A stretch of 64,000 nucleotides of DNA from Lentimicrobiaceae bacterium. Its GTDB lineage: Bacteria > Bacteroidota > Bacteroidia > Bacteroidales > JAGONC01. A program made the position numbers and the translations under genes. The notes under the pieces were generated by a model. The model ran no database searches. It saw nothing but the letters and a program-made list of their open reading frames with translations, and had not been told where the DNA came from. This document shows positions 16,385 to 53,021 of this stretch, in pieces (within the stretch, counting starts at the first letter, position 1; each line of letters starts with the position of its first letter). Location of the stretch: NCBI GenBank assembly GCA_017993235.1, contig JAGONC010000001.1, forward strand, positions 66,880 through 130,879, read 5' to 3'.

Positions 16385-16442
16385 CTGCAAGCTGCAAGCT
16401 GCTATTTCAAAGTTTAAGGCTTGAAGCTTGAGTCTTGTAGCT
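16385..16442. repeat. Simple inverted repeat at the ftsY/cysQ junction
   Basis: agctgcaagctgcaagctgc on the left and gcttgaagcttgagtcttgt on the right form imperfect complementary units. The right part encodes the C-terminal ~12 residues of CysQ (NSYKTQASSLKL), so the repeat replaces or extends that gene's end. Confidence 0.6.
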
Positions 16443-28352: not shown

Positions 28353-29738
28353 ATGAATATGCGCTGGATTTTATTATTCGTTGTCTTTGCCTTTTCCATG
28401 TGTACACCTCAACAACATGATGTTGTGTACCATTCAAATGGCAGGATCATATATCCGCTGACAGCTGATGATGAGACCATGCTGGATTCGATCCAGCAAA
28501 AGACATTTCTGTTCTTTATGAATGAACATCATCCCGACTGGGGTATCGTAAAGGACCGTGCTGCAGCCTGGGCCCCTGCCAGCATCGCTTCCACCGGATT
28601 TGCCATCCCCTGCTTTGCCATCGGCGCCGAGAGAAAATGGATTAGCCGTGAACAGGCAGCAGCGATCACATTGAAGGTCCTGAACTTCTTTATCAGCTCC
28701 GTTCAGAGCGCGGATACCGGTGTGACTGGATACCGTGGATTTTATTACCATTTCCTTGATATGCAGACTGGAACCAGGGAATGGAATTGTGAGCTCTCGT
28801 CCATCGATACGGGCCTGCTGATGATGGGGATCATTTTTGCACGAAACTACTTTGACCTCAATAATGATACCGAAACCAGGATCCGCGAACTGGCAGCACA
28901 ACTGCTGGGCCGTATGGAGTGGAACTTCCTGGAGATGCCTTCAACGGGGAAGCATCCGTATGCGATCTCCATGGCGTGGACCCCGGAAAAGGGATTGCTT
29001 GATTTTGGCTGGAGCGGATACAACGAGGGATTGTTCCTGTATGTGCTGGCTGCTGGCACAGGAATGGAAAACGTGGAAAGAAGCTATCAGTCATGGCTGA
29101 GTACCTATAAATGGACCACTCCCTATGATGGCCTGTCCCACGTGGCTTTCCCCCCGTTGTTCGGCCACCAGTTTTCACAGGCATTCATTGATTACCGTGG
29201 ACTGGCCGATGCCTACATGAAAGAAAAAGGCATGGATTACTTTGAGAATTCACGACGGGCGACCTATGTCCAGCGGCAGTATGCCATCGATAATCCACAC
29301 GGCTGGACTGGCTATGATTCGCTTTGCTGGGGGATCACCGCCTGCGACGGGCCCACGGAGAAATTTAATTTCGACGATAATAAATTTCTGGGATATGCGG
29401 GACGGGGCACCAGCGGACCCGATTATAACTATTTCGACGACGGGACCATTGCGCCGTATGGAGCTTTGTCATCCCTGCCTTTTGCTCCGGAAATCGTTCT
29501 ACCGACCGCTAAAGCGATGCTGCTGAACTATGAAGGAAAACTCTGGGGCAAATATGGTTTTTATGATTCGTTCAACCTGACGGCGGGATGGGTGGATGAT
29601 GATTTCATCGGCATCGACCAGGGACCGATGCTGATCATGATCGAGAATTTCCGTACAGGGCTGGTGTGGAACTATGTGATGAAGGACCCGATCATACAGA
29701 CTGGTATGGCTAAGCTCGGTTACGAATATTTGCCGTAA
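28353..29738 (+). CDS. GH144-type (glycoamylase-domain) lipoprotein, likely beta-1,2-glucan hydrolase
   Basis: A 461-residue protein with a lipoprotein signal (MRWILLFVVFAFSMCTPQQ, Cys at the cleavage site) followed by one (alpha/alpha)6 'glycoamylase' domain (PF10091, GH144). Diagnostic stretches: LQQKTFLFFMNEHHPDWGIV-like start, ASTGFAIPCFAIGAER, WSGYNEGLFLYVLA, CWGITACDGP, and IDQGPMLIMIENFRTGLVWN near the C-terminus. GH144 members cut beta-1,2-glucan; single-domain Bacteroidota forms include sophorose-releasing exo enzymes. Here it begins the plus-strand catabolic run, and as a lipoprotein it probably acts in the periplasm or at the outer membrane. Endo or exo mode is not decidable from sequence. 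Confidence 0.85.
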   Translation: MNMRWILLFVVFAFSMCTPQQHDVVYHSNGRIIYPLTADDETMLDSIQQKTFLFFMNEHHPDWGIVKDRAAAWAPASIASTGFAIPCFAIGAERKWISREQAAAITLKVLNFFISSVQSADTGVTGYRGFYYHFLDMQTGTREWNCELSSIDTGLLMMGIIFARNYFDLNNDTETRIRELAAQLLGRMEWNFLEMPSTGKHPYAISMAWTPEKGLLDFGWSGYNEGLFLYVLAAGTGMENVERSYQSWLSTYKWTTPYDGLSHVAFPPLFGHQFSQAFIDYRGLADAYMKEKGMDYFENSRRATYVQRQYAIDNPHGWTGYDSLCWGITACDGPTEKFNFDDNKFLGYAGRGTSGPDYNYFDDGTIAPYGALSSLPFAPEIVLPTAKAMLLNYEGKLWGKYGFYDSFNLTAGWVDDDFIGIDQGPMLIMIENFRTGLVWNYVMKDPIIQTGMAKLGYEYLP

Positions 29739-29905: not shown

Positions 29906-32900
29906 ATGATTAATAAAAACTTAGTAAATATGCAATTCACCATATATAAAGAAGCTGCATTTGTTGTCCTGCTGGCCATCTTAACGACAATAACTTCAGC
30001 CCAGGTCAGGACCCTGGATGATTTTGAAAACAAGGAGGGCTGGACATTCAACAAATCCGACGGAGTCGTCGTGAGCCTTTCCAATGAAAAGGGAATGACC
30101 GGCAACGCGATACGATTTGATTATGATTTCAGCAAAGGCACAGGCTACGGGGGAATCCAGAAACTCTTCCCGGTGGATCTTCCTGAAAACTATGAATTCA
30201 CTTTTTATGTCAGGGCAGAATCTCCGTCCAATAATTTTGAGATCAAATTCATCGACAGCACGGGAAACAATGTCTGGTGGGTGAACAATCGCAACTACGA
30301 TTTTCCGGAGGAATGGAAAAAGATCCGCGTTAAGAAACGACATATCCAGTTCGCCTGGGGGCCGGTGACGGATCAAAGCATAAGGCGTGTAGACAGGATC
30401 GAGTTTACCATCGCATCCTTTGTGGGGGGTAAGGGGACGATCTGGCTGGATGATCTGAAATTTGAGCCTCTTCCGCCCGAAACACTGACTTACCCGGAGC
30501 CTGCTGTCACTGCATCCTCCTGTGCGAGACACCATTCATCCTGTCTAATAACGGATCACTCGGATCTGACCTGGTGGAAAAGCCGCCGGATGAATGATCA
30601 GTTCATTATTTTTGATTTCACAATGAAAAGAGAATTTGGCGGCCTTCAGATCGACTGGCTGAAAGATCATAATGCGGTAAGTTTTGATATTCTCCTTTCG
30701 GAGGACGGTGAGATGTGGGAAAAGGCTTATTCCGTTCCTTCCAATCGCAATGCTGTCAGTTTTATCCGGTTGCCGGAGGCAGAGACAAGGTTTCTGAAAA
30801 TCGATCTTAAAGAACCATATTCAGAAAAGGGATATGCCATCAGGGAGGTCAAATTCCTGGATATCAGGAATTCCTTGACGTTGAATGATTTTCTGATCTA
30901 CACTGCAAAGAATTCTCCCCATGGCGATTATCCCAGGTATTTCCTTGAGCAGGCTTCCTACTGGACGATCACGGGTGTTAATAACGATGTGAAGGAAGCC
31001 ATGATCAACGAAGAGGGCATGGTTGAGGTGGATAAGGCGCTGTTTTCCATTGAACCGATGATCAAAATGGATGGTGTCCTTTATAACTGGAGCAATGTCA
31101 ATGTGATGCAATCCATGGGCAGCGATGATGATCCGGATGAATTCAGCTTCGTTCCATCCGTCACCTGGAATTGCCGTGACCTTGAATTCAGGACAGGAGT
31201 GACCGCCAATGGCATTGCCAACCGGAGTTCCGTTCTCCAGATCCAGTATGCATTTAACAACACGTCGGGACAGGCGATGGATTTTGAATTTTACCTGCTG
31301 ATCCGTCCGTTCCAGGTGAACCCTTACTACCAGTTTCTGAACCTTGCCGGCGGTGCCGGTAAGATTAGGTCGATCAGGGAACTCACGGGAGAAAGCATTG
31401 CTGTTGATGATAAGGTGGTCACTTCCTGGAAGAAATATGATTCATTTGGAGCCGTTAGCTTTGATTATGGCAACGTGGTTGATTTAATGAGAGAGGGTGT
31501 GATGCCACACGAAAAGGCTGTTACTGATCAGCGCGGACTGGCCAGTGGGATCATCAAATACTCATTGCACCTTGATCCCGGTGAAGATACCCGGTTCTTC
31601 GTTACGGTACCATTTTATACACAACAGCCAGTTGGCAGTGACAGGGAAGCCGGCTATCCTTCTGATGAAATCGGAAAGGTGGAGGAATTCTGGAAAGAGA
31701 AGACCGGTCATGTCAAATTCAACCTGCCCGCCTCGGCCGACCGGATTGTCAACACGTACAAGTCGAACCTGGCCTACATATTAGTTAACAGGGACAGGGT
31801 GGGGATACAGCCCGGCTCCCGGTCCTATGAGCGAAGCTGGATCCGTGACGGGGCGCTGACGTCTTCTGCCCTGTTGAAATCCGGCATCGTACCGGAGGTG
31901 AAAGATTTCATTGACTGGTACGCGGATCACCAGTACGAAAATGGAAAGGTTCCCTGTGTGGTGGATGCAAGGGGACCTGATCCGGTTCCGGAAAACGACA
32001 GTCATGGTGAATTCATTTACCTGATCCGTGAATATTTCAACTTTACACAGGACACCGCTTTTCTCCGGTCCAAAAATCAAAACGTACTGAAAGCGGTGGA
32101 ATACATTGAATCGTTGATTGCAGAGCGGTCGACGGATCATTATAAATATGGTAATGACAGCGTCAGGGCCCATTACGGATTGGTACCGGAATCGATCAGC
32201 CATGAAGGCTATTCAGCCAAGCCCATGCATTCGTACTGGGATAATTTCTTTACAATGAAAGGGCTGAAAGACGCAGTGGAAATACAGAAGATCCTCGGGG
32301 AAACGGAAAATTATGAAAGGATTTCAAAAGTCCGCGATACATTCAGGGAGAACCTGTACACTTCGCTGAACCTGGCCATGAAGTACAAGAACATTGATTA
32401 CATCCCCGGTTGTGTTGAGCTGGGTGATTTTGACGCCACCTCCACCACCATAGCCCTGACTCCGTGCAATGAACTGATAAATCTTCCCGGACCACAGGTT
32501 TACAATACCTTTGACCGCTATTATGACTTTTTCAGGAACAGGCGTGACAGGAAGATCGACTGGGTCAACTATACACCCTATGAGAACCGTCTGATCGGTT
32601 CGTTTATCATCCTGGATCAGCCGGAAAGAGCGCATGAGCTGATCGAATTTTTCCTGGATGATCAGCGCCCTCAGGGATGGCATCACTGGGCCGAGGTTGT
32701 GTGGAAAGATTACCGCACTCCCCGTTATATTGGCGATATGCCGCATACCTGGTGCGGAAGTGACTTTCTGAACGCCATCCGGGCCTTGTTCGTCTATGAA
32801 AATGAATATGATCAATCACTGGTATTGGCCCCGGCACTGTACCAGGACTGGATCGATGCGCCCGGCGGCATGTCGGTCGAGAACCTGCCGACCTATTACG

Positions 32901-33115
32901 GCGAGATCTCCTATTTTATTAAAAAAGAGGACAATCGGTACCGATTTTCTATTTTTGGCGATGTGAATCTTCCTGAGAACGGGATCAGGATCAAAAATTT
33001 CAATGGATCAAAAATGCCGGTGAAGGTCACTGTCAACGGTTTGGAGATCAATGATTTCAATTACCGGGAGATTCCGGTCGGGATCGTACCGGCAGAGGTG
33101 GAGATTTATTATTAA
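29906..33115 (+). CDS. Large secreted discoidin/(alpha/alpha)6-barrel protein, glycosidase-like, family not recognised
   Basis: A 1069-residue protein with a Sec signal peptide (hydrophobic run FVVLLAILTTITSA; start at 29906 or at internal ATG 29930). Apparent order: a beta-sandwich like a carbohydrate-binding module (about 34-190, ending GTIWLDDLKFEPLP), an F5/8-type C (discoidin) domain (about 195-325, TASSCARHHSSCLITD and IREVKFLDI), a long beta-sandwich (about 340-630), then an (alpha/alpha)6-barrel-like region (about 640-990) with the acidic motifs YERSWIRDGAL (641-651), ELGDFDATSTT and HHWAEVVWKD. This architecture resembles clan GH-L/GH15- and GH78-like glycosidases, but I cannot assign a family. 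It lies in the presumed beta-1,2-glucan operon, 23 bp before the transporter gene. Confidence 0.75.
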   Translation: MINKNLVNMQFTIYKEAAFVVLLAILTTITSAQVRTLDDFENKEGWTFNKSDGVVVSLSNEKGMTGNAIRFDYDFSKGTGYGGIQKLFPVDLPENYEFTFYVRAESPSNNFEIKFIDSTGNNVWWVNNRNYDFPEEWKKIRVKKRHIQFAWGPVTDQSIRRVDRIEFTIASFVGGKGTIWLDDLKFEPLPPETLTYPEPAVTASSCARHHSSCLITDHSDLTWWKSRRMNDQFIIFDFTMKREFGGLQIDWLKDHNAVSFDILLSEDGEMWEKAYSVPSNRNAVSFIRLPEAETRFLKIDLKEPYSEKGYAIREVKFLDIRNSLTLNDFLIYTAKNSPHGDYPRYFLEQASYWTITGVNNDVKEAMINEEGMVEVDKALFSIEPMIKMDGVLYNWSNVNVMQSMGSDDDPDEFSFVPSVTWNCRDLEFRTGVTANGIANRSSVLQIQYAFNNTSGQAMDFEFYLLIRPFQVNPYYQFLNLAGGAGKIRSIRELTGESIAVDDKVVTSWKKYDSFGAVSFDYGNVVDLMREGVMPHEKAVTDQRGLASGIIKYSLHLDPGEDTRFFVTVPFYTQQPVGSDREAGYPSDEIGKVEEFWKEKTGHVKFNLPASADRIVNTYKSNLAYILVNRDRVGIQPGSRSYERSWIRDGALTSSALLKSGIVPEVKDFIDWYADHQYENGKVPCVVDARGPDPVPENDSHGEFIYLIREYFNFTQDTAFLRSKNQNVLKAVEYIESLIAERSTDHYKYGNDSVRAHYGLVPESISHEGYSAKPMHSYWDNFFTMKGLKDAVEIQKILGETENYERISKVRDTFRENLYTSLNLAMKYKNIDYIPGCVELGDFDATSTTIALTPCNELINLPGPQVYNTFDRYYDFFRNRRDRKIDWVNYTPYENRLIGSFIILDQPERAHELIEFFLDDQRPQGWHHWAEVVWKDYRTPRYIGDMPHTWCGSDFLNAIRALFVYENEYDQSLVLAPALYQDWIDAPGGMSVENLPTYYGEISYFIKKEDNRYRFSIFGDVNLPENGIRIKNFNGSKMPVKVTVNGLEINDFNYREIPVGIVPAEVEIYY

Positions 33116-33137: not shown

Positions 33138-35228
33138 ATGAACGAAGCAGATAACAGCGCGGCACGCACTACAAGACCGGAAGAAAAGATCAAATTTTCG
33201 CAGATGGCTGCCTACGGCGCCGGAGGTATCATCCCCATCGCCCTCTTCAACATAGCAGGGATCATGGTGGGGTTGATGGGCAATATCAGCCTGGGACTCA
33301 GCGCCTTCTGGCTGGGACTCATCCTGATCATCCCGCGTCTGTGGGATGCGATCTCAGATCCGATCATTGGTCATCTTTCCGATAACACAAGAACACGCTG
33401 GGGGCGCCGCCGGCCCTACCTGCTGATCGGAGGGCTGCTGGTCGCCCTGTTCTTTGTTGTGATGTGGTGGATCCCAAAGGGGGAAATGGCACAGACCTGG
33501 TTTCCGACAGAGTCCGGGTTCCAGGCGTTTCAACTGGTCTATATACTCATCGCCCTTCTGCTGTTCTTCACGGCTGTCAATATCTTTGAGATACCGCATG
33601 GTGCCCTGGGGATGGAACTGACGACGGATTACCATTACCGTACGCGACTGTTCAGCGCAAAGAGCTTTGTAGGGAACCTTTTTGCCATGAGCACGCCCTG
33701 GCTCATCAAACTCGCCCGCCTGGAAATCTTCAGGGGCCCGGGGGGAAATGAAGCCGACGGTATGCGCTATGTTTCCATTATGATCGCAGCATTCCTCATC
33801 CCGCTATCATTCTGGTGGTTCTTCAAACTACGAGAACCAGGATTTGTCAAGGCAGCCAAGCATGAAAAGACACCTTTCTGGAAGGATATGAAGACGGTTG
33901 TGACCAACAGGAATTTTGTCATGCTGACCTTGACGATCTTCACCCTGGCCATGGGATTCAATTTTGTTCAGCTGCTCGGATCGTACATACCCATCTTTTA
34001 TGTGTTTGGCGGAGATAAGGATGCCGGAGCCACCATGCTGGGAATCAACGGTACTGTGTGGGCCATCACGGGAGTGCTGGCTGTTTTCCCCCTGAATGTG
34101 ATCAGCCCGAAACTGGGCAAGCGAAACACACTGGCCATCTCCATCATTCTGATGTGCCTGGCTCAGCTTTCCAAAATAGTCTGTTATAATCCTGATTATC
34201 CTTATTTAATCGTCATTCCGACGATTCTGCTTTCTGCAGGTATGCTGTTTTTCTTTACGCTGGGATCCTCCATGGTGGGTGATATCTGCGATGAAGATGA
34301 ATTGCACAGAGGTTACCGTTCGGAGGGAAGTTTTTATTCCATCTTCTGGTGGTTCATAAAAATGGGCACCGCCCTGGCAAGCTTTGTAGGAGGAGCCCTG
34401 ATCGTTCTCACCATGTTCGATGAAATTCAGGTCACCAAAGTGGATGGCTTACAGGGAAGCATCGGAGAACTTCAAAATAAAGTACAGTACTGGAAGGATT
34501 ATCAGGGAAGGGCAGGGATCACTGTCGAATGGATTGAAAAAGCCAGGGTTCAGTGCGCCGAAGCCCTGGAGGAATCACGGGATTATACCCGGTACCTTGA
34601 GAAGGAATCCCTGAAGGAACCCGACAAAACATTTGAAGATATCACAGCTTACCAGCGGCAGCGCAAGGACGTGCTGACGAATGCCCTGACTGCAACGAAA
34701 ACCACCCTTGCCGGGCTGGAAAAACTTCAACCCCGTCTGAATACCCTGGAAATGAGCGATCCGGACACGCTGATCCATTCACTTATCAAACAGACGATTC
34801 CACTTACGCTGCAGACCAAAGTCGAAAAAGCCAGGAAGAATTCGTTTGACCTCATGTCGCACCTGCAGGCGAAATCACTGAAATCCAGGAACAGCAAAGA
34901 GCACTATAACACGGTCATGCGGGATATGACCCGGATCAATAACCGCATTACAAACCTGAACCTGGCAGTATCGCTTGATTTTCTGGATAAAGAACTCAGT
35001 GTCACTAAGGAAGAGACCAGCCTGCTCACCAAACAGACACCCTATACCCTGTTGATGATGCGGGTGGTCGAGATCGGTCTGCCAGTGATCCTGAGTATCT
35101 TATCCATTATCTTCCTCCTGCGGTACTCACTGACGGAAAAGCGTTCGCACGAAATCAAGGATCTTCTGGAGAAAAGAAGTGCTGAACGGCTCAGGGAAGA
35201 AAATGCAGCCGGAAATGCAATAACTTAA
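33138..35228 (+). CDS. GPH-type (glycoside-pentoside-hexuronide) sugar:cation symporter with coiled-coil insert
   Basis: A 696-residue MFS transporter of the GPH group from ATG 33138; upstream codons in frame overlap the preceding gene. The first ~420 residues hold about 11 membrane helices with GPH marks (AISDPIIGHLSDNTRTRWGR, GDICDEDELHRGYRSEGSFY). A ~205-residue hydrophilic, helix-rich, probably coiled-coil insert follows (about 426-632), then the last membrane helix (MRVVEIGLPVILSILSIIFL) and a charged tail. Typical GPH carriers are 450-500 residues, so the insert is unusual. It probably brings sophoro-oligosaccharides from periplasm to cytoplasm for GH94/GH35. Confidence 0.86.
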   Translation: MNEADNSAARTTRPEEKIKFSQMAAYGAGGIIPIALFNIAGIMVGLMGNISLGLSAFWLGLILIIPRLWDAISDPIIGHLSDNTRTRWGRRRPYLLIGGLLVALFFVVMWWIPKGEMAQTWFPTESGFQAFQLVYILIALLLFFTAVNIFEIPHGALGMELTTDYHYRTRLFSAKSFVGNLFAMSTPWLIKLARLEIFRGPGGNEADGMRYVSIMIAAFLIPLSFWWFFKLREPGFVKAAKHEKTPFWKDMKTVVTNRNFVMLTLTIFTLAMGFNFVQLLGSYIPIFYVFGGDKDAGATMLGINGTVWAITGVLAVFPLNVISPKLGKRNTLAISIILMCLAQLSKIVCYNPDYPYLIVIPTILLSAGMLFFFTLGSSMVGDICDEDELHRGYRSEGSFYSIFWWFIKMGTALASFVGGALIVLTMFDEIQVTKVDGLQGSIGELQNKVQYWKDYQGRAGITVEWIEKARVQCAEALEESRDYTRYLEKESLKEPDKTFEDITAYQRQRKDVLTNALTATKTTLAGLEKLQPRLNTLEMSDPDTLIHSLIKQTIPLTLQTKVEKARKNSFDLMSHLQAKSLKSRNSKEHYNTVMRDMTRINNRITNLNLAVSLDFLDKELSVTKEETSLLTKQTPYTLLMMRVVEIGLPVILSILSIIFLLRYSLTEKRSHEIKDLLEKRSAERLREENAAGNAIT

Positions 35229-35267: not shown

Positions 35268-37721
35268 ATGATGACTTTCGCGATCAGGGAGAACAACTTT
35301 TTTCTGAATGACAGGAAGGTGTTTCTCAATTCAGGAGAGATCCATTACTTCCGTATCCCACGTGAACACTGGGATGAGCACCTGGATGCTGCCAGGAAGG
35401 CAGGTCTGACCACCGTCAGCACGTACATTCCCTGGGCGTGGCATGAATATAAAGAGGGAGTTGTTGATCTTGACGGCAGATCCTGCCCGGAGCGTGATTT
35501 GAGCGGTTGGCTGGCCAGGTGCCAGTTTCATGGATTGCACTGCATTGTGAAGCCCGGTCCGTTCATTCTGGCCGAAACCCGGGGAGCCGGATTACCCGAC
35601 TGGTTCCTGGAGCACTTCGGTGAACAGGTGAAGATGCGTAATCGTTCAGGTGAGACCGTTCAGAGTGACGGTGTCAGCCTGTTCCATCCACGTTACCTGG
35701 AAAAGGTCACATTGTGGTACGATCAGATCATGCCGTTCATACGGGAGCGGGAAATCACCCGCGGCGGACCTGTCATCATGATGCAGATCTGCAATGAGAT
35801 CGGCGTTTTTTCGTGGCTGGCGCACCAGGCAGATTACGGCGGTGCAGTCAGGGATCGTTTCATAGCCTATATGAAAGGTAAATCTGCAGATATTCAGGCG
35901 GTGAATACATTATGGGGAACTGATTATCACGATTTTACTCATATTGAGCTGCCTCCCGACGGACGGCAACCCTACGCATCCAGGGGTGACCGCGCTCGCG
36001 ATCATGAATGGCACTGCTTCTGGCGGACCTATTACGGAGATTACCTGCGCATGCTGTCCGCCATGGCCCGCGAAAGGGGTGTAGCTGTTCCTTTCTATCA
36101 TAACCTGCCTGGCTGGATTTACGGGAGCGGTTATGAATTTCCGGTGAATATCACCATGTACGATGATCTGTTCGGGGATAAGAGCGGGATCCTATTCGGG
36201 GTGGATCATATTCCTGAGTATGTTTCGCACCGCAACATGCATGATGACCGGATCATCAACGATATCACCCGTGCCATGCAGGGTAACAAGCCCCTTTTTG
36301 CCGCGGAATTTCAGTGTGGCTCCCGCGAGTACCATGTAGTGACCAATCCCCGCGAGCTGGAACTTTTTTATAAGGCAAGTATCGCCCACGGACTGACCGG
36401 CTGGAATTACTATATGTTCTCACAGGGGAGGAATCCCGCACGCAGGGGTTATTCCGGATCGACATTTTACTGGTTTACCCCGCTGACCCCTGAGGGAAAA
36501 CGAACTAGTGCATTTCCCCTGGTGCAAAGGATGAGTCAACGGATTAAGGTTTCGGAAAACATCATCGTTGAGGCAAAACGTAAAGCGGAAGTATGCGTGC
36601 TCTTTTATCCGCCATATTATGCAACCGAACTGGAGCGACCTGAAACGGGAGCCTCCGGGCTTCAATTCGTGGCATCAGCCATACGGCGACCGGCTTATTT
36701 CGATGGATTGCTGAAGGTGCTCCAGGTTCTCAATGTGGATTATGATATGGCGGATCTGAGCAAAGCCTCTTCTGATTCATTGGGTAAGTACAGTCAAGTA
36801 TGGGCATTCTGCACCGATGAGATGAATGCAGGGGATCAGCAGACCCTGGTCGATTATACCAGGGCTGGTGGACAACTGGTCATTTTGCCGCATTTGCCTG
36901 ATCGGGAGATATCACAAAAACCATGTAGTATCATTCGGGATGCTTTATCTGTGGCACCATCCGGAAAGGAAATCATCGATTCGCCCCTGGTTGATATCTT
37001 CCATTTGAAAGATATCAAGTGTGCCAATCCGCAGATCATTTATTCCGAGGAGTCCCTTACCGATGCGGAGATCATTGCCCGGACGATTGATGGTTCTGCC
37101 TGCGGATTTACCAAACGGCTAGGTAAGGGATCACTGACCCATCTGGGAACCTGGCTGGGATTTGACACAGAAGGACATAAGCCCGTTTATGAAGCCATTC
37201 TGATGCGGTCAGGCGCCAGACTGAGACAGGCATCTGCATCCAACGAGAATATCACTGTAAGAGAGCGTTTTACGGATGCTGGATCGGCCATTCTTTTCAT
37301 CGGAAATTATTATAATGAGGAACAAACGGGAAACGTCACCTACACCCATCCTGGAAGTGGTGAACCTGTTTCTATACCTTTTACGGGCGGAGAAATGGCA
37401 TGGCCGGCACTGTATGGGGTGCTGACACCGGTATGCATGGAGATTGCAGAGGGAATCAACATCCTCCACAGCACTTCGGATATTCTCGGAATTAAAGAAA
37501 CGAACGGTCATATTGAGATCACGCTTTATGGAGACCGGGATCTGGCAGGGGAGACCGTCTTTGCGGGGAAGAATGTTGATACGATCAACGCTGCTAGTAT
37601 CGGTGGAGAGGAGATCGAAATAATTTCTAAAGAGCATAGTATAGCATTGAATTATAGTCATTTACATAAGCAGGAGTTTATATTGAAAGTTGGAATAAAG
37701 AAACCTAGAGTCTGTGGTTAA
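35268..37721 (+). CDS. GH35 family enzyme, possibly a 1,2-beta-oligoglucan glucosyltransferase
   Basis: An 817-residue protein without signal peptide, hence cytoplasmic. The GH35 TIM barrel is clear: NSGEIHYFRIPREHW, STYIPWAWHEYKEG, acid/base Glu177 in MQICNEIG and nucleophile Glu347 in AAEFQCGS, followed by beta-sandwich domains. Most GH35 enzymes are beta-galactosidases, but a GH35 member from Ignavibacterium album, encoded with a GH94 phosphorylase, is a 1,2-beta-oligoglucan glucosyltransferase. Cytoplasmic location and direct pairing with the ~1,110-aa GH94 gene (36 bp downstream) make that activity more likely here than galactosidase. This is inference from context. Confidence 0.8.
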   Translation: MMTFAIRENNFFLNDRKVFLNSGEIHYFRIPREHWDEHLDAARKAGLTTVSTYIPWAWHEYKEGVVDLDGRSCPERDLSGWLARCQFHGLHCIVKPGPFILAETRGAGLPDWFLEHFGEQVKMRNRSGETVQSDGVSLFHPRYLEKVTLWYDQIMPFIREREITRGGPVIMMQICNEIGVFSWLAHQADYGGAVRDRFIAYMKGKSADIQAVNTLWGTDYHDFTHIELPPDGRQPYASRGDRARDHEWHCFWRTYYGDYLRMLSAMARERGVAVPFYHNLPGWIYGSGYEFPVNITMYDDLFGDKSGILFGVDHIPEYVSHRNMHDDRIINDITRAMQGNKPLFAAEFQCGSREYHVVTNPRELELFYKASIAHGLTGWNYYMFSQGRNPARRGYSGSTFYWFTPLTPEGKRTSAFPLVQRMSQRIKVSENIIVEAKRKAEVCVLFYPPYYATELERPETGASGLQFVASAIRRPAYFDGLLKVLQVLNVDYDMADLSKASSDSLGKYSQVWAFCTDEMNAGDQQTLVDYTRAGGQLVILPHLPDREISQKPCSIIRDALSVAPSGKEIIDSPLVDIFHLKDIKCANPQIIYSEESLTDAEIIARTIDGSACGFTKRLGKGSLTHLGTWLGFDTEGHKPVYEAILMRSGARLRQASASNENITVRERFTDAGSAILFIGNYYNEEQTGNVTYTHPGSGEPVSIPFTGGEMAWPALYGVLTPVCMEIAEGINILHSTSDILGIKETNGHIEITLYGDRDLAGETVFAGKNVDTINAASIGGEEIEIISKEHSIALNYSHLHKQEFILKVGIKKPRVCG

Positions 37722-37757: not shown

Positions 37758-40700
37758 ATGAAAATAAGGAATTCCCCCGGCCTTTTCATTGAGTTCCTGG
37801 AAAATGGCGCTATTAAAAGCATTGAAGCCAGTCCCATCCGTATAAGCCTCAAACCCGCAACCCTTTTTTCATCGCACGGTGCAAGCCTTTTCCTGAGAAA
37901 ACGATCGCAAGCCATTGAATACAAGGCCATTACTGGTCCATTGAGCAATAGCCGCTTCGTGGTTCATGGCAACGCCTATTATGCTCAGGGTAGTTGGAAT
38001 AATATTGATTATCAGGTTGTTATACAGTTATCAGACAAAAGCTTGAGCTGGCAATATTCCGTCGAGATCAGCAATCATTCTGATGATACTGTTGAACTTG
38101 ATCTGATCTGCGTACAGGATGTTGGGCTTAAGCAGGTGACAGATGGCTTGATCAACGAATATTATGTGAGCCAGTATCTTGAAAGGCGCATTCTGGAGGA
38201 TGACCGGTTTGGCCCGGTTGTATGCTGCCGTCAGAATATGCGGGAATCTACTGGTCATCCGTGGCTGATGGCTATCTGCATGAATGGTGCCCAATCTGCT
38301 GCCACGGATGGTATGCTTTTCTATGGAAGAACATGCCGTGCAACCGGCATCCCGGAAGGGCTGATCACCGGGAGGCTGGGAGGTGAATATGCAGGGGAGT
38401 CTTCTGTCATCGCGCTGCAGGAAAAGCCATTTCATCTGGCTGCCGGCGGTCATCACCGGAGCGTTTTTATCTTCACCTATTTACCAGATCATCCGCAGGC
38501 AACGTCAGCTGCTGACCTTGGCCGACTGGCAGGCCTTTTATCGGAATTCTGCGATGTGATTGCCCTTTCTGTAACAAATCATTGGGTGACTCCTGTCGGA
38601 AACCTGTTTGACACCTCTTCTTTTTTACCGGTTGATGATCTGCATGAGGAGGAGTTGATTCGTTTCTTTGGTACCGACAGGCGTCATTGTGAATGGAATG
38701 GTGAGCGGTTATTGTCTTTTTTTTGCCGACAGAATGAGCATGTGGTATTGCAGGTCAAAGAAACCCTGGTTGATCGTCCCCATGCCCACATCATGCAGAC
38801 CGGAGCCGGATTATTACCGGACGAAAGCATTATGTCCACAACATCCTTTGCATCGGGAATATTTAATTCTCATCTGTCGCAGGGGAATACCAATTTCAAT
38901 GTTTTACTTTCCATCTGCACAAGTCAGTTCAATCTTGGGCGGGAAGCAGGGCAGAGGATCTTTGTGGAGATCGGCGGAAGATATTATCTGCTGGGTGTAC
39001 CCTCCGCATTTGAGATGGGTTTAAATCATTGCCGGTGGGTATACAAACATGGTGACCATTGTTTCCAGATCCGCACGTGGACATCAAAATCCATCCCGCA
39101 GGTCAACATGGATTTCAAGGTCATCAGTGGACCAAAAGTTAAATTACTGGTCACACATGATTTTGATCCACTGAACGGATGGGTAGTGCAACCGGGAAGG
39201 ACGACCCACGAATGGGAAGCCAAACCAAAAACAGACAGCATGATCCGTAGTCACTTTCCCCATGCAGCATTCCGTATGGTGATCCATGATCCGCACGTAC
39301 AGATGGATAATGGTGGAGACCAGATTCTTTTTGCCGATCAGAAGAATCACGGGAGCAGTTTATGGATCATCCTCACAGAGGAGACCTCGGATTTATGCAT
39401 GAGTTTTATTGGCGATGTTTGTGGCGTCAATCCGTACGAAATCATCCAGGATCCTGATCAAAAGTGGTCTTCAGATTGCGAGGCAGCCCGCTCAGCCTGG
39501 CAGGTGCTTAGCTTAGACCTGTCGCTCAAAAGTAGTCAGAGCGATATTAAAGCAATCCATGAGATCCTGCCCTGGTACGGCATGAATGCTCTTACCCATT
39601 TTTTAACGCCTTACGGACTGGAGCAGTTCAGCGGGGCTGCCTGGGGAACACGCGATGTGGCGCAGGGCCCGGTTGACCTGTTGCTGACCATGGGTAAATA
39701 CCGGGAAGTAAAGCAGGTGTTGAAGATCATCTTTTCCAATCAGCATCCCGATGGCGGATGGCCGCAATGGTGGATGTTCGACAGCTACCAGTCCATTCGC
39801 GCTGACAGCTCTCACGGAGACATTTATTACTGGTGCATCATCGCGCTGGCTAATTATATAAAGATCACAGGCGATCTTGACATTCTAGGGGAGCCTTTGC
39901 CGTATTACAGAGATAATAATGCTGAATCATCCCTAATAAAGCCGTTGAGTGAGCATATGGACAGGCTGATCCAGATGATTATTCATTCTTTTATTCCGGG
40001 AACTTCCCTGGTTCCATTTGATGGAGGCGACTGGAACGATTCCCTTCAGCCAGTCAGTAAAGAACTGGCTCAGCGCATGATCTCGAGCTGGACGGTGGAA
40101 ATGAATTACCAGGCATTCGGGGCATACGAGCAGGTATTTACATTAACCGGTAATAAAGCTAAAGCTGAAGAAATGCATGACATCTGCATGAGCATCAAAG
40201 CAGATTTTAACAGGCACCTTGTCAAAAACGGGATCGTAGCCGGTTACGGCCTGGTCGAAGAGGATCAAAGCATCAGCGTACTGCTTCATCCCGAAGACTA
40301 TACGACAGGGATCCATTACAGCATTTTACCAATGGAACGGGGTATTCTCAGTGGAATTTTTAGCAGGGAGCAGGCGCTGTATCACCAGGATTTGATCGAA
40401 AAGCAACTGAAGGGTCCAGATGGTGCCCGCCTGATGGATAGGCCGCTGAAGTACAAAGGGGGAATTCAGGATATTTTTCAGCGTGCGGAGAGCAGCACCC
40501 ATTTTGGCAGGGAGATCGGCCTGATGTACGTACATGAGCACATCCGTTATGCCGAGTCGTTGGCCATCACAGGCAGGGCGGATGCTTTCGTGAAAGCGCT
40601 TCGCCAGGCCATACCGGTCGGTTACAGGGAAATTGTACCCTGTGGCGACATCCGCCAGGCGAATTGTTATTACAGCAGTTCCGATGTCATTTTCCGGAAT

Positions 40701-41102
40701 CGTTACGAAGCGGATGTGCGCTATGATGAGATCAGGACCGGAAATCTGACACTCAGGGGCGGGTGGAGGGTATATTCCAGTGGCCCTGGTATTTATATCA
40801 GTTTGATAATTACCAGGTTACTGGGATTACGGATCCAAAATGGGTATGTGATCATTGATCCGGTCATCCCATTATCCATGGATGGTTTAGCGGCTTCCCT
40901 GAATTTGCTGGGTCATTCCGTCACCTTTAACTATTCCGTTCGGAATGGGAAATTCAGTCCCACAAGCATTTCCATCAATGGCGAATCCATTCCGTTCACC
41001 CTGGAAGAGAACAAATACCGCTTGGGCGGAGCGGTGATTCCGCGGGACCGGTTTATGGGAATGCTGGATCCCGGGACGAATGTCATCCATATCCGGTTAT
41101 AA
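37758..41102 (+). CDS. GH94 phosphorylase, probable 1,2-beta-oligoglucan phosphorylase
   Basis: A 1114-residue protein with no signal peptide. It contains the GH94 (alpha/alpha)6 catalytic domain with FDGGDWNDSLQPV (755-766), where the Asp before WND is the usual general acid, plus YGLEQFSGAAWGTRDVAQGP and the C-terminal YSSSDVIFRNRYEAD motif. The length and N-terminal extension match 1,2-beta-oligoglucan phosphorylases (~1,090-1,110 aa, e.g. Listeria Lin1839), not cellobiose phosphorylases (~800 aa). It would convert sophoro-oligosaccharides plus phosphate to alpha-glucose 1-phosphate in the cytoplasm, saving ATP. It is the last gene of the plus-strand run 28.3-41.1 kb; a GH144 relic follows. 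Confidence 0.86.
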   Translation: MKIRNSPGLFIEFLENGAIKSIEASPIRISLKPATLFSSHGASLFLRKRSQAIEYKAITGPLSNSRFVVHGNAYYAQGSWNNIDYQVVIQLSDKSLSWQYSVEISNHSDDTVELDLICVQDVGLKQVTDGLINEYYVSQYLERRILEDDRFGPVVCCRQNMRESTGHPWLMAICMNGAQSAATDGMLFYGRTCRATGIPEGLITGRLGGEYAGESSVIALQEKPFHLAAGGHHRSVFIFTYLPDHPQATSAADLGRLAGLLSEFCDVIALSVTNHWVTPVGNLFDTSSFLPVDDLHEEELIRFFGTDRRHCEWNGERLLSFFCRQNEHVVLQVKETLVDRPHAHIMQTGAGLLPDESIMSTTSFASGIFNSHLSQGNTNFNVLLSICTSQFNLGREAGQRIFVEIGGRYYLLGVPSAFEMGLNHCRWVYKHGDHCFQIRTWTSKSIPQVNMDFKVISGPKVKLLVTHDFDPLNGWVVQPGRTTHEWEAKPKTDSMIRSHFPHAAFRMVIHDPHVQMDNGGDQILFADQKNHGSSLWIILTEETSDLCMSFIGDVCGVNPYEIIQDPDQKWSSDCEAARSAWQVLSLDLSLKSSQSDIKAIHEILPWYGMNALTHFLTPYGLEQFSGAAWGTRDVAQGPVDLLLTMGKYREVKQVLKIIFSNQHPDGGWPQWWMFDSYQSIRADSSHGDIYYWCIIALANYIKITGDLDILGEPLPYYRDNNAESSLIKPLSEHMDRLIQMIIHSFIPGTSLVPFDGGDWNDSLQPVSKELAQRMISSWTVEMNYQAFGAYEQVFTLTGNKAKAEEMHDICMSIKADFNRHLVKNGIVAGYGLVEEDQSISVLLHPEDYTTGIHYSILPMERGILSGIFSREQALYHQDLIEKQLKGPDGARLMDRPLKYKGGIQDIFQRAESSTHFGREIGLMYVHEHIRYAESLAITGRADAFVKALRQAIPVGYREIVPCGDIRQANCYYSSSDVIFRNRYEADVRYDEIRTGNLTLRGGWRVYSSGPGIYISLIITRLLGLRIQNGYVIIDPVIPLSMDGLAASLNLLGHSVTFNYSVRNGKFSPTSISINGESIPFTLEENKYRLGGAVIPRDRFMGMLDPGTNVIHIRL

Positions 41103-41159: not shown

Positions 41160-41840
41160 TTTTTGCAAAAAATCCATTACCTCGATGCGGTTACAGCATA
41201 ATAGACAAAACATCACTGGGATTACATCTATGAAGCCTGGGATGAACCGAATTTCAGCATGACGCCTTTCGGACCTGATGCCTGTGCCATCGGGGGAACC
41301 GGATTCGGGATCATGGCCACCATCGTTGCAGTAGAAAAATGATTTACCAGCCATTGGGTATCCAACAGCCCTACTTCAATCGCTATGAAGATTATACAGG
41401 TGAGTCAGCGAAAAATTATTCTTATATTGTTTAGATAATCCAAAAGGATTTAAGGAGTATGGTGAGGATGGCTGGGAGCTGACCGCCAGCGATGGGCCCT
41501 TTGATTATTCTGCAGATGAGCCCGTGCCCTGGCAGGACCACGGCAAGTTAACTCCAACCGGTGCCATCAGCTCCTTTCCCTATACCCCTGAGGAATCCAT
41601 GAAAGCCCTAAAGAATTACTATTTCAACTATGGCCATCTTCTCTGTGGGGAGTACGGATTCAGGGATGCCTTCAGCCTTACCGAGAATTGGTGTTTGGAA
41701 ATTTATATGGCTTTAACCAGGCACCCATGACCGTGATGATCGAGAATTACCGGACAGGTCTGATCTGGAAGCTGTTCATGCAGGATCCCGAGATACAGGA
41801 GGGACTCCGGAAACTGCAGGACGAAGGAACCAATGAATGA
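41160..41840 (+). pseudogene. Decayed GH144-type (glycoamylase-domain) gene
   Basis: Fragments in different frames match the intact GH144 proteins of this locus. About 41210-41340 encodes YIYEAWDEPNFSMTPFGPDA...GGTGFGIMATIVAVEK, like GGSGFGVMAVLVGIER in the 812-aa enzyme, then a stop. About 41450-41700 encodes YGEDGWELTASDGPFDYS...TPTGAISSFPYTPEESMKALKNYY, matching WGLTASDDPSGYS...TPSAALSSMPYTPQESMAALKHFY. After a small gap and frame change, 41700-41840 encodes MTVMIENYRTGLIWKLFMQDPEIQ. Roughly 200 central codons are missing and there are several stops, so the gene is dead. It lies directly downstream of the GH94 gene. Confidence 0.88.
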
Positions 41841-44963: not shown

Positions 44964-47261
44964 ATGAAATTCAAACTTTTATTACTGGGATCTCTTGTCC
45001 CGCTGCTGATTCTGACCACCTGTACACAAAAAATGGAAGCTCCTGCCAAAGGCGATATGACCGCTTTCATCGATGGCCTGATGAAAAAGATGACCCTGGA
45101 GGAAAAGATCGGCCAGCTGAACCTGCCCGGTTCGGGGGACATCATCACCGGACAGTCATCCAGCTCTGACATTGGCAAAAAGATCAAAGAAGGAAAGGTA
45201 GGCGGATTGCTGAACATCAAATCAGTGGATAAGATCCGTGATGTGCAGAAAGTGGCCGTTGAGGAGAGCCGTCTGGGCATTCCCCTGATCTTCGGTATGG
45301 ATGTTATCCACGGATATCAGACCACGTTTCCTATTCCACTGGGGCTTGCCAGCAGTTTCGATATGGCGCTGATCGAACAAAGTGCCCGCATCGCAGCGGT
45401 GGAAGCAAGCGCTGATGGAATATGCTGGGCTTTTTCCCCAATGGTTGATATTGCCCGTGATCCCCGCTGGGGAAGGATTGCCGAAGGGGCAGGGGAGGAC
45501 GCTTACCTGGGTTCCCGGGTGGCCGAAGCCTATGTGCATGGATATCAGGGTGATGATCTGTCGAAGAACAATACGATCCTGGCCTGTGTCAAACATTATG
45601 CGCTTTATGGTGCGGCTGAGGCCGGGCGCGATTACAATACGACCGATATGAGCCGTATCCGGATGTTCAATGAATACCTGCCTCCTTATCAGGCAGCTGT
45701 GAAGGCAGGTGTGGGCAGTGTGATGACATCCTTCAATGAAGTCGACGGCATACCTGCCACCGGTAACAAATGGCTGATGACGGATGTTCTGCGTGACCAG
45801 TGGGGATTTAACGGTTTTGTGGTGACCGATTATACCGCCATCAATGAAATGATTGCACATGGAATGGGCGATCTGCAAACCGTCTCAGCTTTAGCCCTAA
45901 AAGCAGGGGTTGATATGGATATGATAGGAGAAGGATTCCTGACCACGTTGAAGAAGTCGCTGGATGAAGGTAAGGTGACCCAGGCAGAGATCGACCAGGC
46001 CTGCCGTCGGATCCTCGAGGCCAAGTATAAACTCGGGCTTTTTGAAGATCCTTACCGTTATTGTGACCTGGATCGCCCTGCTACCGACATTGCCACCGAG
46101 GAGCATAATCGGATCGCCCGGGAAGCAGCCGCTCAAACGTTTGTTTTGCTTAAGAACGAAGATCAGCTGCTGCCACTGGAGAAAAAAGGGAAGATCGCTC
46201 TGGTGGGCCCTCTGGCTGACAGCAGGGATAATATGGCGGGTATGTGGAGTGTGGCTGTTGATCACGCTGAATCCGTCACGGTGCTGGAAGGTTTTAAAGA
46301 GGCGGTTGGTGACGGGGCGGAGATCTTTTACGCTAAAGGTAGTAACATTGTAGATGATAAGGACATGGATCTATGGGTCAGCACCTGGGGCAGACCTACA
46401 ATGGATACAGTAAGAACAGCCGGTGAGCTGAGGAAAGAAGCTGTTGCATTGGCTTCTAAATGTGATGTCATCATAGCCGCCATGGGAGAGGCTGCCGAGA
46501 TGAGTGGTGAAAGCTCGTGCCGTTCTGATATCTCCCTGCCGGGAAGCCAGAAGGAACTTCTGGAAGCACTGCTGAAAACAGGAAAGCCCATCGTACTGGT
46601 TCTCTTTACCGGAAGACCGCTCACGTTGACATGGGAACAGGAAAACATCCCTGCCATCCTCAATGTATGGTTTGGAGGCACTCAGGCAGGGAGTGCCATT
46701 GCAGATGTGATCTTTGGCAAGGTCAATCCTTCAGGCAAACTGCCGGTAACGTTCCCGCAAACTGTCGGACAGATACCGTTGTACTATAATCACAAGAATA
46801 CGGGGCGCCCATTGGCCGAAGGAGAATGGTACCAGAAATACCGCTCAAACTACCTGGATGTCACCAGCGAACCCCTCTATCCCTTCGGATTTGGTCTTAG
46901 CTACACCCGGTTCGGCTATGGTGATCTTGTGCTGGATCAGCAGCGGCTTTCCGGTGATCAGACCCTTACTGCAAGTATCGATATCACCAACACGGGTAAT
47001 TACGATGGTGCTGAAGTCGTTCAGCTTTATATCCGCGACCTGGTGGGGAGCATCACGCGGCCGGTAAAGGAGCTCAGAGGATTTCAGAAAGTATTTATCA
47101 AAGCCGGTGAAACAAAAACAGTGACATTTAAAATCACCCCTGATGATCTGAAATTCTATAACTATGACCTGGTCTATGACTGGGAGCCGGGCGAATTCGT
47201 CATCATGGTGGGAGGCAACTCAAGGGATGTCGGTTCTGAAACTGTTCTCTGGGAGAAATAA
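44964..47261 (+). CDS. bglX: GH3 beta-glucosidase lipoprotein
   Basis: A 765-residue GH3 enzyme with a lipoprotein signal (LLLLGSLVPLLILTTCTQK). The TIM-barrel domain has FGMDVIHGYQTTFPIP, KHYALYGAAEAGRDYN, and nucleophile Asp289 in GFVVTDYTAINEM. The alpha/beta sandwich (AAMGEAAEMSGESSCRSDI) and C-terminal FN3-like domain (GDVQLYIRDLVGSITRPVKE-like) follow, as in BglX. GH3 members from Bacteroides thetaiotaomicron (BT_3567) and Listeria (Lin1840) hydrolyse sophorose and other beta-1,2-glucosides, which fits this locus. It ends 8 bp before the convergent FISUMP gene. Confidence 0.9.
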   Translation: MKFKLLLLGSLVPLLILTTCTQKMEAPAKGDMTAFIDGLMKKMTLEEKIGQLNLPGSGDIITGQSSSSDIGKKIKEGKVGGLLNIKSVDKIRDVQKVAVEESRLGIPLIFGMDVIHGYQTTFPIPLGLASSFDMALIEQSARIAAVEASADGICWAFSPMVDIARDPRWGRIAEGAGEDAYLGSRVAEAYVHGYQGDDLSKNNTILACVKHYALYGAAEAGRDYNTTDMSRIRMFNEYLPPYQAAVKAGVGSVMTSFNEVDGIPATGNKWLMTDVLRDQWGFNGFVVTDYTAINEMIAHGMGDLQTVSALALKAGVDMDMIGEGFLTTLKKSLDEGKVTQAEIDQACRRILEAKYKLGLFEDPYRYCDLDRPATDIATEEHNRIAREAAAQTFVLLKNEDQLLPLEKKGKIALVGPLADSRDNMAGMWSVAVDHAESVTVLEGFKEAVGDGAEIFYAKGSNIVDDKDMDLWVSTWGRPTMDTVRTAGELRKEAVALASKCDVIIAAMGEAAEMSGESSCRSDISLPGSQKELLEALLKTGKPIVLVLFTGRPLTLTWEQENIPAILNVWFGGTQAGSAIADVIFGKVNPSGKLPVTFPQTVGQIPLYYNHKNTGRPLAEGEWYQKYRSNYLDVTSEPLYPFGFGLSYTRFGYGDLVLDQQRLSGDQTLTASIDITNTGNYDGAEVVQLYIRDLVGSITRPVKELRGFQKVFIKAGETKTVTFKITPDDLKFYNYDLVYDWEPGEFVIMVGGNSRDVGSETVLWEK

Positions 47262-50440: not shown

Positions 50441-50516
50441 GATTTCAGAATTAACTGGAAATGTCGTTTTTGCTAAATTAATGAATTTCCGGATTATAAC
50501 TGGTATTTCATTGTAC

Positions 50517-50582: not shown

Positions 50583-53021
50583 TTATTGTTTTATCAATTT
50601 ATCAATTGCTATTATGTGCTGATCTTTACTTAAATAAATAAAGTAAAGCCCCGAAGGGATTCCTTCCAGTCCGGTTCTTATCCGATGAATGCCCGGGGGG
50701 CAAACCCGGCCTGCATGAAGTGATCTGACCTTTTGACCGGTCAGGCTCACGATCGTGATATCGATCTTTTCCTCTTTTTTGCATTCAACAGTAAGGATTG
50801 TCTCTTCATGTGCCGGATTGGGAGAACAGGAAAAGGATATCATATCTGGATCATATCCGGGTCCATTGATCGAATAGGGATCATTCACAAAACCGATGGA
50901 TTCCAGGGCCGGAGCGATCTCGGGATTTTTCATGAATTTATCCCACAGCAAACCGCTGCGGTGATTTTCGATCATGCAGATGATGGGACCCTGGTCGATG
51001 GCAAGGTATGAGTCCGCATACCAGTTTTGCTGCACATTGAAGGCATCATAAAATCCAAAGGGTCCCCACAGATCGGCACCACGGTCGCGGTAAAAATGCT
51101 TCAGTGCGGCCATGGACTCCTGGGGAGTATAAGGCATGGAGGACAAAGCTGCCGAGGGAGTAATGGTACCATTATCGCGGGATGTGATGGGCTCGTGAAC
51201 ACTGTAACCGGATGGATCATCGCTGGCGGTCAATCCCCAGCACGAGGCGCTGTAACCTGAATAATTCTTGGGATTATCCATGCAGTATGCCTGGTTGATC
51301 AGGCTCATGTTTTTATTGTTATTGAAGTAATTGGTATACTTATCTTTTATATTCCTGGGATCAAAACCAAGAAAGGAGTAGTGGGCAAAGAAAAGCGGGC
51401 CGCCGTAATCCCAGCCCACATCCAGTTTATATCCATAAAACGTTTTACCATTTTTGTAATAGGAACTTCCGGCCCATCCTGTCTCCCACAGGTTGGCAGG
51501 GACGCCATGTGTGGGAGACGCAATGGCAAGGATGTACACGATCATGGCTTCGTTGTACCCTCTGACCGTCATATTCATCTGCCAGCCGTAGTTGGGAGAC
51601 CAGTGCCAGTAGAGGACGCTGCTGCCATTGCGCCGGTACCAGTCCCATTCCATGGATTCCCAGAGCTGGGTAATGGTCTCCCGAATCGTTTGCTCATCCG
51701 TCGAATTCTGATCAAAATAATGTCGTGCCGTCAGCAGACCCTGGAACATGAACGCGGTTTCGACCAGGTCCCCTCCATTGTCATAGGTGGTGAAGGGGAT
51801 AACATCCCCGGTGTTTCCATTCATCCAGTGCGGCCAGGCTCCATGGAATCTATCGGCAGATTCCAGAAAGTGAACGATGGTGAGCATCCTTTCCACTCCC
51901 TGCTGGCGGGTGATGAATCCTCTTTCAATCCCGACAAGTACCGCCATTACTCCAAACCCGGAACCCCCGATGGTGACCACATCCCCTGAGGTATTTCTCT
52001 CACGTGTCAGTCCGCTCACCGGATGCGCGAAGTCCCAGAAATAGCGGAAGGTGGCTTCCTGAACCATGTTCATGAGCTCCTCATCGGTCATGTCATGCGT
52101 ACTGGTTGTAACGGATTCTGTGAATACCGAGGGCTGATTGACAGCATTCAGTGCATTGATTTTGTACTGCAGGTTCAGATTGGTTCCCAGGGATCGCACG
52201 AAGTCCGAAAAATAGGGAGTTGCTTTGCTGGCAATACCTGCTTTTTGCCAGTATGTGCCGTTATCAGTTGACCTGTAGATTTCATAGCCGTTCAGATTCG
52301 TTTCCGTATTGGGATTCCATTTCAGATATACATGGCTGTCGTACCCACTGACAGCAAGCCCAGTCGGAGTTGCTACGGGCGGGGAGGAACCATCACCCAC
52401 CTGCACCCTGACATCATCGATGAACAGGGTGTGTTCGGAGTCATCTGTCAGGTTCTGACCCCAGCCTACCGTTTTGATCTTTGTGAAGTCGACTGGATCA
52501 CCGGCATCAAAGAAAAGCTTCATTGGAACAGTGATCCGCGTCCACCTGTCAGGCGGCAGGTCATCAGCATATGAGGTCAGGCTGAACTGCGTTGTTGTGG
52601 TATTGTTGATATCTTCCAGGAATACGGTAGGCAGTTTTTCTTTTGCCAGTCCTTCAGGAGCGTAAAAATAAAATGCCAGTGTGTCGGTCTGTGATATGTC
52701 TTTAGCGGCCCAATCCAATCCTGCAGCGATGGCATGCCAGTATCCGCCGGGAACCGAGCGCCAGTGAAGCCGCAGGGAGTTCATGCCCTGTTGTGCAGGG
52801 GTGGTAGTTTCAACGGGGAACCGGCGACTGTCATATCCTGCCAGCTCAAGATAACTCGGTGTTGTCAGCACCAGCCAGCTGAAATCATAGTAGTTGTCCA
52901 GCGGGCTGTCCTGAAAGTAGTAATAGGTTTGGCCCTGGGTGTGGGTCCATAAGAGTAATGAGAGGAGAAAGGAGAGAGGAGAGAGGAGAGAGGAGAGAGT
53001 GTTTTTGGAGGGTGGTTTCAT
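50583..53021 (-). CDS. T9SS-exported multidomain GH144-type enzyme
   Basis: An 812-residue protein. Order: signal peptide (LLSPLSFLLSLLLWTHTQG), a beta-sandwich binding domain (about 30-215, ending HTLFIDDVRVQVG), an FN3 domain (about 218-310, LKWNPNTETNLNGYEIYRS), the glycoamylase/GH144 catalytic domain (about 315-725; ATFRYFWDFAHPVSGLTRER, GGSGFGVMAVLVGIERGF, RGYNEAMIVYILA, IDQGPIICMIENHRSG), and a type A T9SS tail (about 732-812; FSCSPNPAHEETILTVE ... GIPSGLYFIYLS). It would cut beta-1,2-glucan outside the cell. The signal peptide is coded by a 7-bp tandem repeat (see 52959-52999). It is followed by a terminator. Confidence 0.88.
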   Translation of the reverse strand: MKPPSKNTLSSLLSPLSFLLSLLLWTHTQGQTYYYFQDSPLDNYYDFSWLVLTTPSYLELAGYDSRRFPVETTTPAQQGMNSLRLHWRSVPGGYWHAIAAGLDWAAKDISQTDTLAFYFYAPEGLAKEKLPTVFLEDINNTTTTQFSLTSYADDLPPDRWTRITVPMKLFFDAGDPVDFTKIKTVGWGQNLTDDSEHTLFIDDVRVQVGDGSSPPVATPTGLAVSGYDSHVYLKWNPNTETNLNGYEIYRSTDNGTYWQKAGIASKATPYFSDFVRSLGTNLNLQYKINALNAVNQPSVFTESVTTSTHDMTDEELMNMVQEATFRYFWDFAHPVSGLTRERNTSGDVVTIGGSGFGVMAVLVGIERGFITRQQGVERMLTIVHFLESADRFHGAWPHWMNGNTGDVIPFTTYDNGGDLVETAFMFQGLLTARHYFDQNSTDEQTIRETITQLWESMEWDWYRRNGSSVLYWHWSPNYGWQMNMTVRGYNEAMIVYILAIASPTHGVPANLWETGWAGSSYYKNGKTFYGYKLDVGWDYGGPLFFAHYSFLGFDPRNIKDKYTNYFNNNKNMSLINQAYCMDNPKNYSGYSASCWGLTASDDPSGYSVHEPITSRDNGTITPSAALSSMPYTPQESMAALKHFYRDRGADLWGPFGFYDAFNVQQNWYADSYLAIDQGPIICMIENHRSGLLWDKFMKNPEIAPALESIGFVNDPYSINGPGYDPDMISFSCSPNPAHEETILTVECKKEEKIDITIVSLTGQKVRSLHAGRVCPPGIHRIRTGLEGIPSGLYFIYLSKDQHIIAIDKLIKQ
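52959..52999. repeat. 7-bp tandem repeat inside the GH144 signal-peptide codons
   Basis: Plus-strand ggagaga units: four perfect copies plus one base (52971-52999) preceded by a degenerate copy. On the coding strand it reads ctctcct repeats within codons for the Leu/Ser-rich signal peptide. Seven is not a multiple of three, so gain or loss of one unit would shift the frame. Confidence 0.85.

Follow-up and report, generated by a model that had tools for sequence, protein, structure and literature searches.

Symbiosis, pathogenesis and osmoregulation all involve β-1,2-glucans, whose enzymology is not yet complete (PMC12102758). Solved relatives of the enzymes considered here include XcSGL (XCC2207), a characterized endo-β-1,2-glucanase (PMC12102758), and IaSGT, a β-1,2-glucosyltransferase (PMC8861115). 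In clan GH-L, a Tyr located between helices α1 and α2 is separated by seven residues from an Asp on α2 (positions 337 and 344 in TtGA; PMC8626586), and the catalytic acid and base of GH-L or GH15 enzymes are placed on the α5-α6 and α11-α12 loops, respectively (PMC8626586, PMC12446779).

Here we describe gene Q, encoding a predicted secreted glycoside hydrolase next to a GH144 gene in a 64,000-nucleotide stretch of a Lentimicrobiaceae genome (the window). No description of Q was found in the open-access literature, subscription journals being mostly outside the scope of the search, and the main text of PMC8861115 names no Q-like gene in the Ignavibacterium cluster. The family appears to be unnamed, and an earlier naming is possible.

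Gene Q and the surrounding locus

The genes around Q (Table 1), as judged from their sequences, very probably form a β-1,2-glucan utilization locus, since they include relatives of GH144, GH35, SOGP and a second GH144, together with a SusC/SusD pair. The nearest solved relative of the GH144 protein encoded upstream of Q is XcSGL, while the second GH144 protein resembles BDI_3064, the sophorose-releasing enzyme.

Table 1. Genes, domains and predicted catalytic residues of the Q locus (positions in the window)
Feature	Position	Strand	Basis or remark
GH144 lipoprotein	28353..29738	+	Pfam PF10091; 8xul E 9e-105; lipobox by eye
Gene Q	29906..33115	+	1069 aa; predicted secreted glycoside hydrolase, family unnamed
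Q, probable Sec signal peptide, residues 1-32	29906..30001	+	Sequence, by eye; no lipobox
Q, CBM11-like β-sandwich, residues ~33-190	30002..30475	+	AlphaFold model, Foldseek 1v0a E 1e-9
Q, F5/8 type C (discoidin), residues 201-314	30506..30847	+	Pfam PF00754 E 4.8e-9
Q, long β-sandwich, residues ~350-570	30953..31615	+	AlphaFold model, fold matches
Q, (α/α)6 barrel, residues ~609-960	31730..32785	+	AlphaFold model; linker helix 584-600 before barrel
Q, YERSWIRD, residues 641-648	31826..31849	+	Contains Tyr641, Trp645, Arg647 and Asp648, assigned by prediction to the -1 subsite and water network
Q, Glu767, SHE motif	32204..32206	+	Predicted general acid, α5-α6 loop
Q, Glu930, WAE motif	32693..32695	+	Predicted general base, α11-α12 loop
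GPH-type sugar symporter	33138..35228	+	Pfam MFS_2 E 6e-62; start inferred
GH35	35268..37721	+	7vkw E 8e-145; nearest solved relative IaSGT
SOGP, 1,2-β-oligoglucan phosphorylase type	37758..41102	+	Pfam SOGP domains; 5h3z E 4e-166
GH3 β-glucosidase, lipoprotein-like	44964..47261	+	
Second GH144, BDI_3064-like	50583..53021	-	Sub-threshold Pfam match; C-terminal secretion tail
SusD	54251-55783	-	
SusC-like TonB-dependent receptor	55802-58852	-	

The window also contains a broken GH144 remnant after the SOGP gene (41211-41816, +), with its pieces in two frames; the related locus L047 carries an intact GH144 gene at this spot (15521-17014). Between the SOGP and GH3 genes are encoded a GH43-discoidin protein (42485-44260, +) and a secreted-looking protein of 222 aa (44284-44952, +), the latter also present in L046. 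A protein of 1082 aa with three Fib_succ_major stretches is encoded between GH3 and the second GH144 (47270-50518, -).

The Q reading frame was found to be a genuine gene, as had been assumed in the preliminary description: it contains no internal stops, and it is not a chance ORF, because 49 homologous frames, mostly showing 36 to 91% identity, were recovered from other genomes. In the homologue alignment, 145 of the 1069 positions are conserved at a level of at least 97%. The start of Q is separated by 167 bp from the end of the upstream GH144 gene. Its placement between GH144 and the symporter gene was correctly described; the gap to the latter, given as 23 bp, was computed as 22 bp. This distance applies to the ATG at 33138, the mechanically called symporter ORF starting at 33051 and overlapping Q.

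A Sec-like N-terminus without a lipobox is also found, by eye, in the homologues of Q. All four domains named in the preliminary description were recovered. The putative CBM gave only a sub-threshold Pfam match (CBM_4_9, E 0.025), yet the AlphaFold model of this part matches CBM11; the discoidin domain is above the Pfam cut-off; and the model contains both a long β-sandwich and an (α/α)6 barrel. In a separate model of the N-terminal region (pLDDT 86, pTM 0.76), a CBM11-like sandwich is accompanied by a discoidin-like one.

Fold, remote relatives and predicted active site

The F5/8 type C domain is the sole Pfam domain of Q above cut-off, and no GH family was matched. PF00723 (GH15), PF03632 (GH65) and PF17167 (GH94) gave no match in hmmscan at E values up to 1, and PF10091 (Glycoamylase, GH144) gave none in the Pfam scan. 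The NCBIfam GH15-type model TIGR01577 aligned to residues 640-740 with 19.8 bits (E 2.5e-4), compared to a cut-off of 820.7. Searches of PDB sequences with Q or its profile returned only weak CBM11 and GH15 or GH78 fragments, none of them significant, and PHROGs contained no match. The earlier statement that no recognized family accommodates Q is in agreement with the Pfam, NCBIfam and PDB results. As judged from Pfam, NCBIfam, PHROGs, PDB and open-access papers, Q is probably an undescribed glycoside hydrolase, and it might already have a CAZy number.

Residues 320-1069 were modeled with AlphaFold from 28 sequences, many of them more than 60% identical (pLDDT 85.5, pTM 0.89). The predicted architecture is of the clan GH-L type, with a β-sandwich, a helical linker and an (α/α)6 barrel, behind which a C-terminal β-domain is placed. 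The pLDDT falls below 50 in loops around 449-455, 517-529 and 622-627 of the model numbering, close to the predicted active-site loops. Every structural match of the model is a glycosidase with a barrel, often preceded by an N-terminal sandwich, and identities are 9-16%. The best Foldseek match is GH94 (E 6.5e-18, 11% identity). In VIA-align, a comparison that speaks only of the families in its match list, GH65, GH15, GH78 and GH116 were matched at Z 22-26, the best being GH65 7fe3 (Z 26.4, rmsd 4.6, 552 aligned), followed by GH15 dextran dextrinase 9ju0 (Z 26.3, rmsd 4.0, 551 aligned) and, at Z ∼25, GH15 isomaltose glucohydrolase. Matches at Z 22-26 establish the fold of the modeled protein, not its family.

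Profile comparisons with hhalign, which discriminate better between families, gave probabilities of 100 for a sister group of uncharacterized proteins (see below), 96.6 for GH15, 93.7 for GH94, 69 for GDE_C, 62 for SOGP, 36 for GH78, 6.3 for GH65 and 0.1 for GH144, with 3.6, 22 and 0.3 for unrelated controls. The alignments were small, made per family and run singly, and the E-values are therefore not database-calibrated. These comparisons suggest that Q is remotely related to GH15. At the level of sequence profiles, GH144 and Q are unrelated; an apparent kinship (probability 100) was rejected, as it came from a GH144-Q fusion (L056) included in the GH144 alignment, and the value of 0.1 was obtained without it. 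Q was classified as an unnamed GH-L-like family, because its model and alignments show the structural features examined for GH-L and the GH15, GH65, GH94 and GH144 profiles failed to match it. Of the clans suggested in the preliminary description, GH-L, the one examined specifically, fits best.

The three motifs highlighted previously were located at residues 641-651 (YERSWIRDGAL), 840-848 (GDFDATSTT) and 926-933 (HHWAEVVW). Across 25 diverse sequences, with identities down to 30%, the invariant positions included Tyr641, Trp645, Arg647, Asp648, Glu696, Asp698, Glu767, Trp778, Asp779, Asp841, Asp843, Glu930 and Asp944, as well as a GDMPH motif. An unforced alignment with the GH15 profile placed identical residues at Tyr641, Trp645, Arg647, Asp648, Asp698, Glu767 and Glu930, and a GH15 profile from the same sequences aligns in turn with the Kribbella isomaltose glucohydrolase at the Tyr, the Asp and the acid and base glutamates of that enzyme, for which a 20-residue tag offset was assumed in the numbering, in agreement with the Y48F, E178A and E335A entries and with Asp56 (PMC12446779). 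Tyr641 and Asp648 show the placement and spacing of the GH-L Tyr/Asp pair. By helix count, the model has Glu767 in the α5-α6 connection and Glu930 in the α11-α12 connection, so that profile alignment and helix positions place both on the GH-L acid and base loops; this residue correspondence between Q and GH15 derives from sequence profiles and helix order, not from atomic superposition. Since Q aligns with GH15 and the two glutamates fall on these loops, we propose inverting hydrolysis with Glu767 as the acid and Glu930 as the base. Glu762 was dropped as a candidate acid, since L013, L062 and L063 carry Ala or Pro instead. The predicted (α/α)6 fold and conserved acids agree with the earlier idea of a new glycoside hydrolase, while the lyase offered as an alternative found no support, the residues fitting an inverting hydrolase instead.

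Distribution of Q and its linkage to GH144

A scan of GTDB species genomes identified 29 Q loci, and within the same phylum strong matches were found in 20 of 395 genomes, the window's own included. Q is also carried by four plasmid records (Xanthomonas sacchari, Croceibacterium, Methylosinus and Methylocystis), and the recorded hosts include Phycisphaerales (L055) and Ignavibacteriaceae (L040 and L050). The family is spread over Bacteroidota, Pseudomonadota and, possibly, Planctomycetota.

Profiles built from fetched sequences were run over every Q-bearing fragment (52 loci), and 45 loci were found to have GH144 on the fragment that carries Q. The other seven comprise four contigs that begin inside Q, the Methylosinus locus with an adjoining SOGP gene, and L055 and L064, which have neither. 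The homologues are nearly always found near GH144, GH94 or GH35, which answers the question of co-occurrence raised in the preliminary description. The usual gene order is GH144-Q-GPH-GH35-SOGP-GH3; more distant loci carry apparent ABC transporter genes instead of the symporter (annotated as such in X. sacchari) and another GH94 instead of SOGP. The GH144-Q pairing also occurs in X. sacchari and Croceibacterium. In L056 (8558-13105, +), a single open frame joins a complete GH144 (residues 1-460) to Q residues 34-1069; judged by its sequence, this is apparently a natural fusion from which the Q signal peptide is absent.

GH144 is present in all 20 genomes carrying Q, compared to 135 of 395 overall (hypergeometric 2e-10, genomes treated as unrelated). 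The reverse does not hold: an XcSGL-like GH144 is present in 45 genomes, 17 of which have Q, so that Q can be regarded as an optional partner of GH144. It also appears dispensable, since less than a sixth of the genomes with GH144 carry it.

On the X. sacchari plasmid (L061:411-22724), genes for a LacI regulator, a TonB receptor, GH144, an ABC transporter and Q form a cluster adjoining glk, zwf, pgl and edd, with Q lacking a gene entry in the annotation table. The Methylosinus plasmid (L063:6445-14418) carries the Q homologue next to genes for a SOGP homologue and a GH15 protein, with no GH144 nearby. The neighbors of Q in the Phycisphaerales locus gave one transporter match only.

Proposed function and comparison with known systems

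We consider it likely that Q is a periplasmic, GH-L-type inverting hydrolase that would act in an exo manner, trimming oligosaccharides released by GH144. Its sequence, predicted fold, residue correspondence and gene linkage are the data from which we infer its activity, exo mode, inversion, location and substrate. In the proposed pathway, the surface GH144 would cleave β-1,2-glucan and the SusCD pair would take in the fragments, which the periplasmic GH144 and Q would shorten. The -1 subsite of Q (Trp645, Arg647, Asp648) may bind the terminal glucose, with Glu767 protonating the glycosidic oxygen and Glu930, positioned by Tyr641, activating a water molecule, so that glucose would be freed with inversion. 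The CBM11-like and discoidin domains may hold the glycan. Small products would be brought in by the GPH symporter, and breakdown would be completed by cytoplasmic SOGP and GH35. However, the enzymes of this pathway already cover the endo, exo and phosphorolytic steps.

The substrate, we think, would be a β-1,2-gluco-oligosaccharide, cut at a terminal β-1,2 bond or at an α-linked residue; the predicted GH15-like chemistry favours an α-glucosidic bond, whereas the gene context favours β-1,2. Exo-acting, inverting hydrolysis of the terminal β-1,2 bond, releasing glucose or sophorose by means of a GH-L-like fold adapted to β-linkages, is a serious if tentative candidate: the β-1,2-glucan context is nearly constant in several phyla, and GH94, the second-best named profile match, handles β-linkages with the same broad fold. 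On the other hand, β-1,2 bonds are already cut by GH144, GH3 and SOGP, and the nearest named profile, with the full catalytic set, is GH15, which acts on α-glucosides. The latter active site, alignable to that of isomaltose glucohydrolase, points to an exo α-glucosidase directed at an α-linkage in or on β-1,2-glucans, a reading that we regard as possible but somewhat doubtful. An example would be the single α-1,6 bond of α-1,6-cyclised β-1,2-glucans, attacked after trimming by GH144 and GH3; opening of this closure is one way in which chemistry and context might be reconciled. Such glucans have been found in Xanthomonas, Ralstonia and Rhodobacter (PMC11228985), a Xanthomonas plasmid has the cluster of GH144 and Q, and the presence of Q is optional among GH144 genomes. 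Against this, the hosts of Q come from many settings without known α-1,6-cyclised β-1,2-glucans, and anomeric preference cannot be read from a sequence.

A phosphorylase or transglycosylase activity in place of hydrolysis seems unlikely. Phosphorylases of GH94 and GH65 are among the fold neighbors, as is 9ju0, a GH15-type transglucosidase, but Q has a Glu at the base position, as in GH65 hydrolases in which phosphate binding has been lost (PMC8626586), and its probable periplasmic location would disfavour phosphorolysis. It is still harder to see Q as a non-catalytic, mainly glycan-binding protein on a hydrolase scaffold: two N-terminal domains are of the binding type, but homologues down to 30% identity show no variation at the predicted acid and base or at the Tyr and Asp. 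Returning to the inverting hydrolase, we tentatively suggest that Q may found a new GH family in or near clan GH-L, dedicated to β-1,2-glucans and performing a step missing from GH144, GH3, GH35 and SOGP, e.g., removal of the α-1,6 closure. For Q, a conserved protein that accompanies GH144 and has no name, explicit catalytic predictions can be given; if the activity is true, it would add one more GH family and could explain the opening of decorated or cyclised β-1,2-glucans.

The proteins of the sister group (L022-L026; uncharacterized, 793-850 aa) match Q with E 4.5e-57 and share the RD, WD and E motifs, but have only ∼20-22% identity, no discoidin domain found and no adjoining GH144. No Pfam family was above cut-off in the four members scanned. 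Their genes have a glycosyltransferase, GH92 and others as neighbors, which give no clue to the substrate. GH144 (clan GH-S) has an (α/α)6 barrel, the operon and probably the glycan in common with Q; in contrast, there is no detectable sequence relation, and the solved enzymes of the GH144 type each consist of one barrel (PMC12102758). GH94 phosphorylases resemble Q in overall architecture, give the best Foldseek matches and show remote profile similarity, but align nothing to its acid and base glutamates. GH65, e.g., the α-1,2-glucosidase FjGH65A (7fe3), shares the architecture and the acid and base loops, although at 10% identity and with the weak hhalign value given above. Q differs from GH15 (glucoamylase, glucodextranase, isomaltose glucohydrolase and dextran dextrinase) in the lack of a PF00723 match, in its additional CBM11-like and discoidin domains and in its β-1,2-glucan context, but shares with these enzymes the N-terminal sandwich, linker and (α/α)6 barrel, with Tyr, Trp, Arg, Asp, acid Glu and base Glu at corresponding places.
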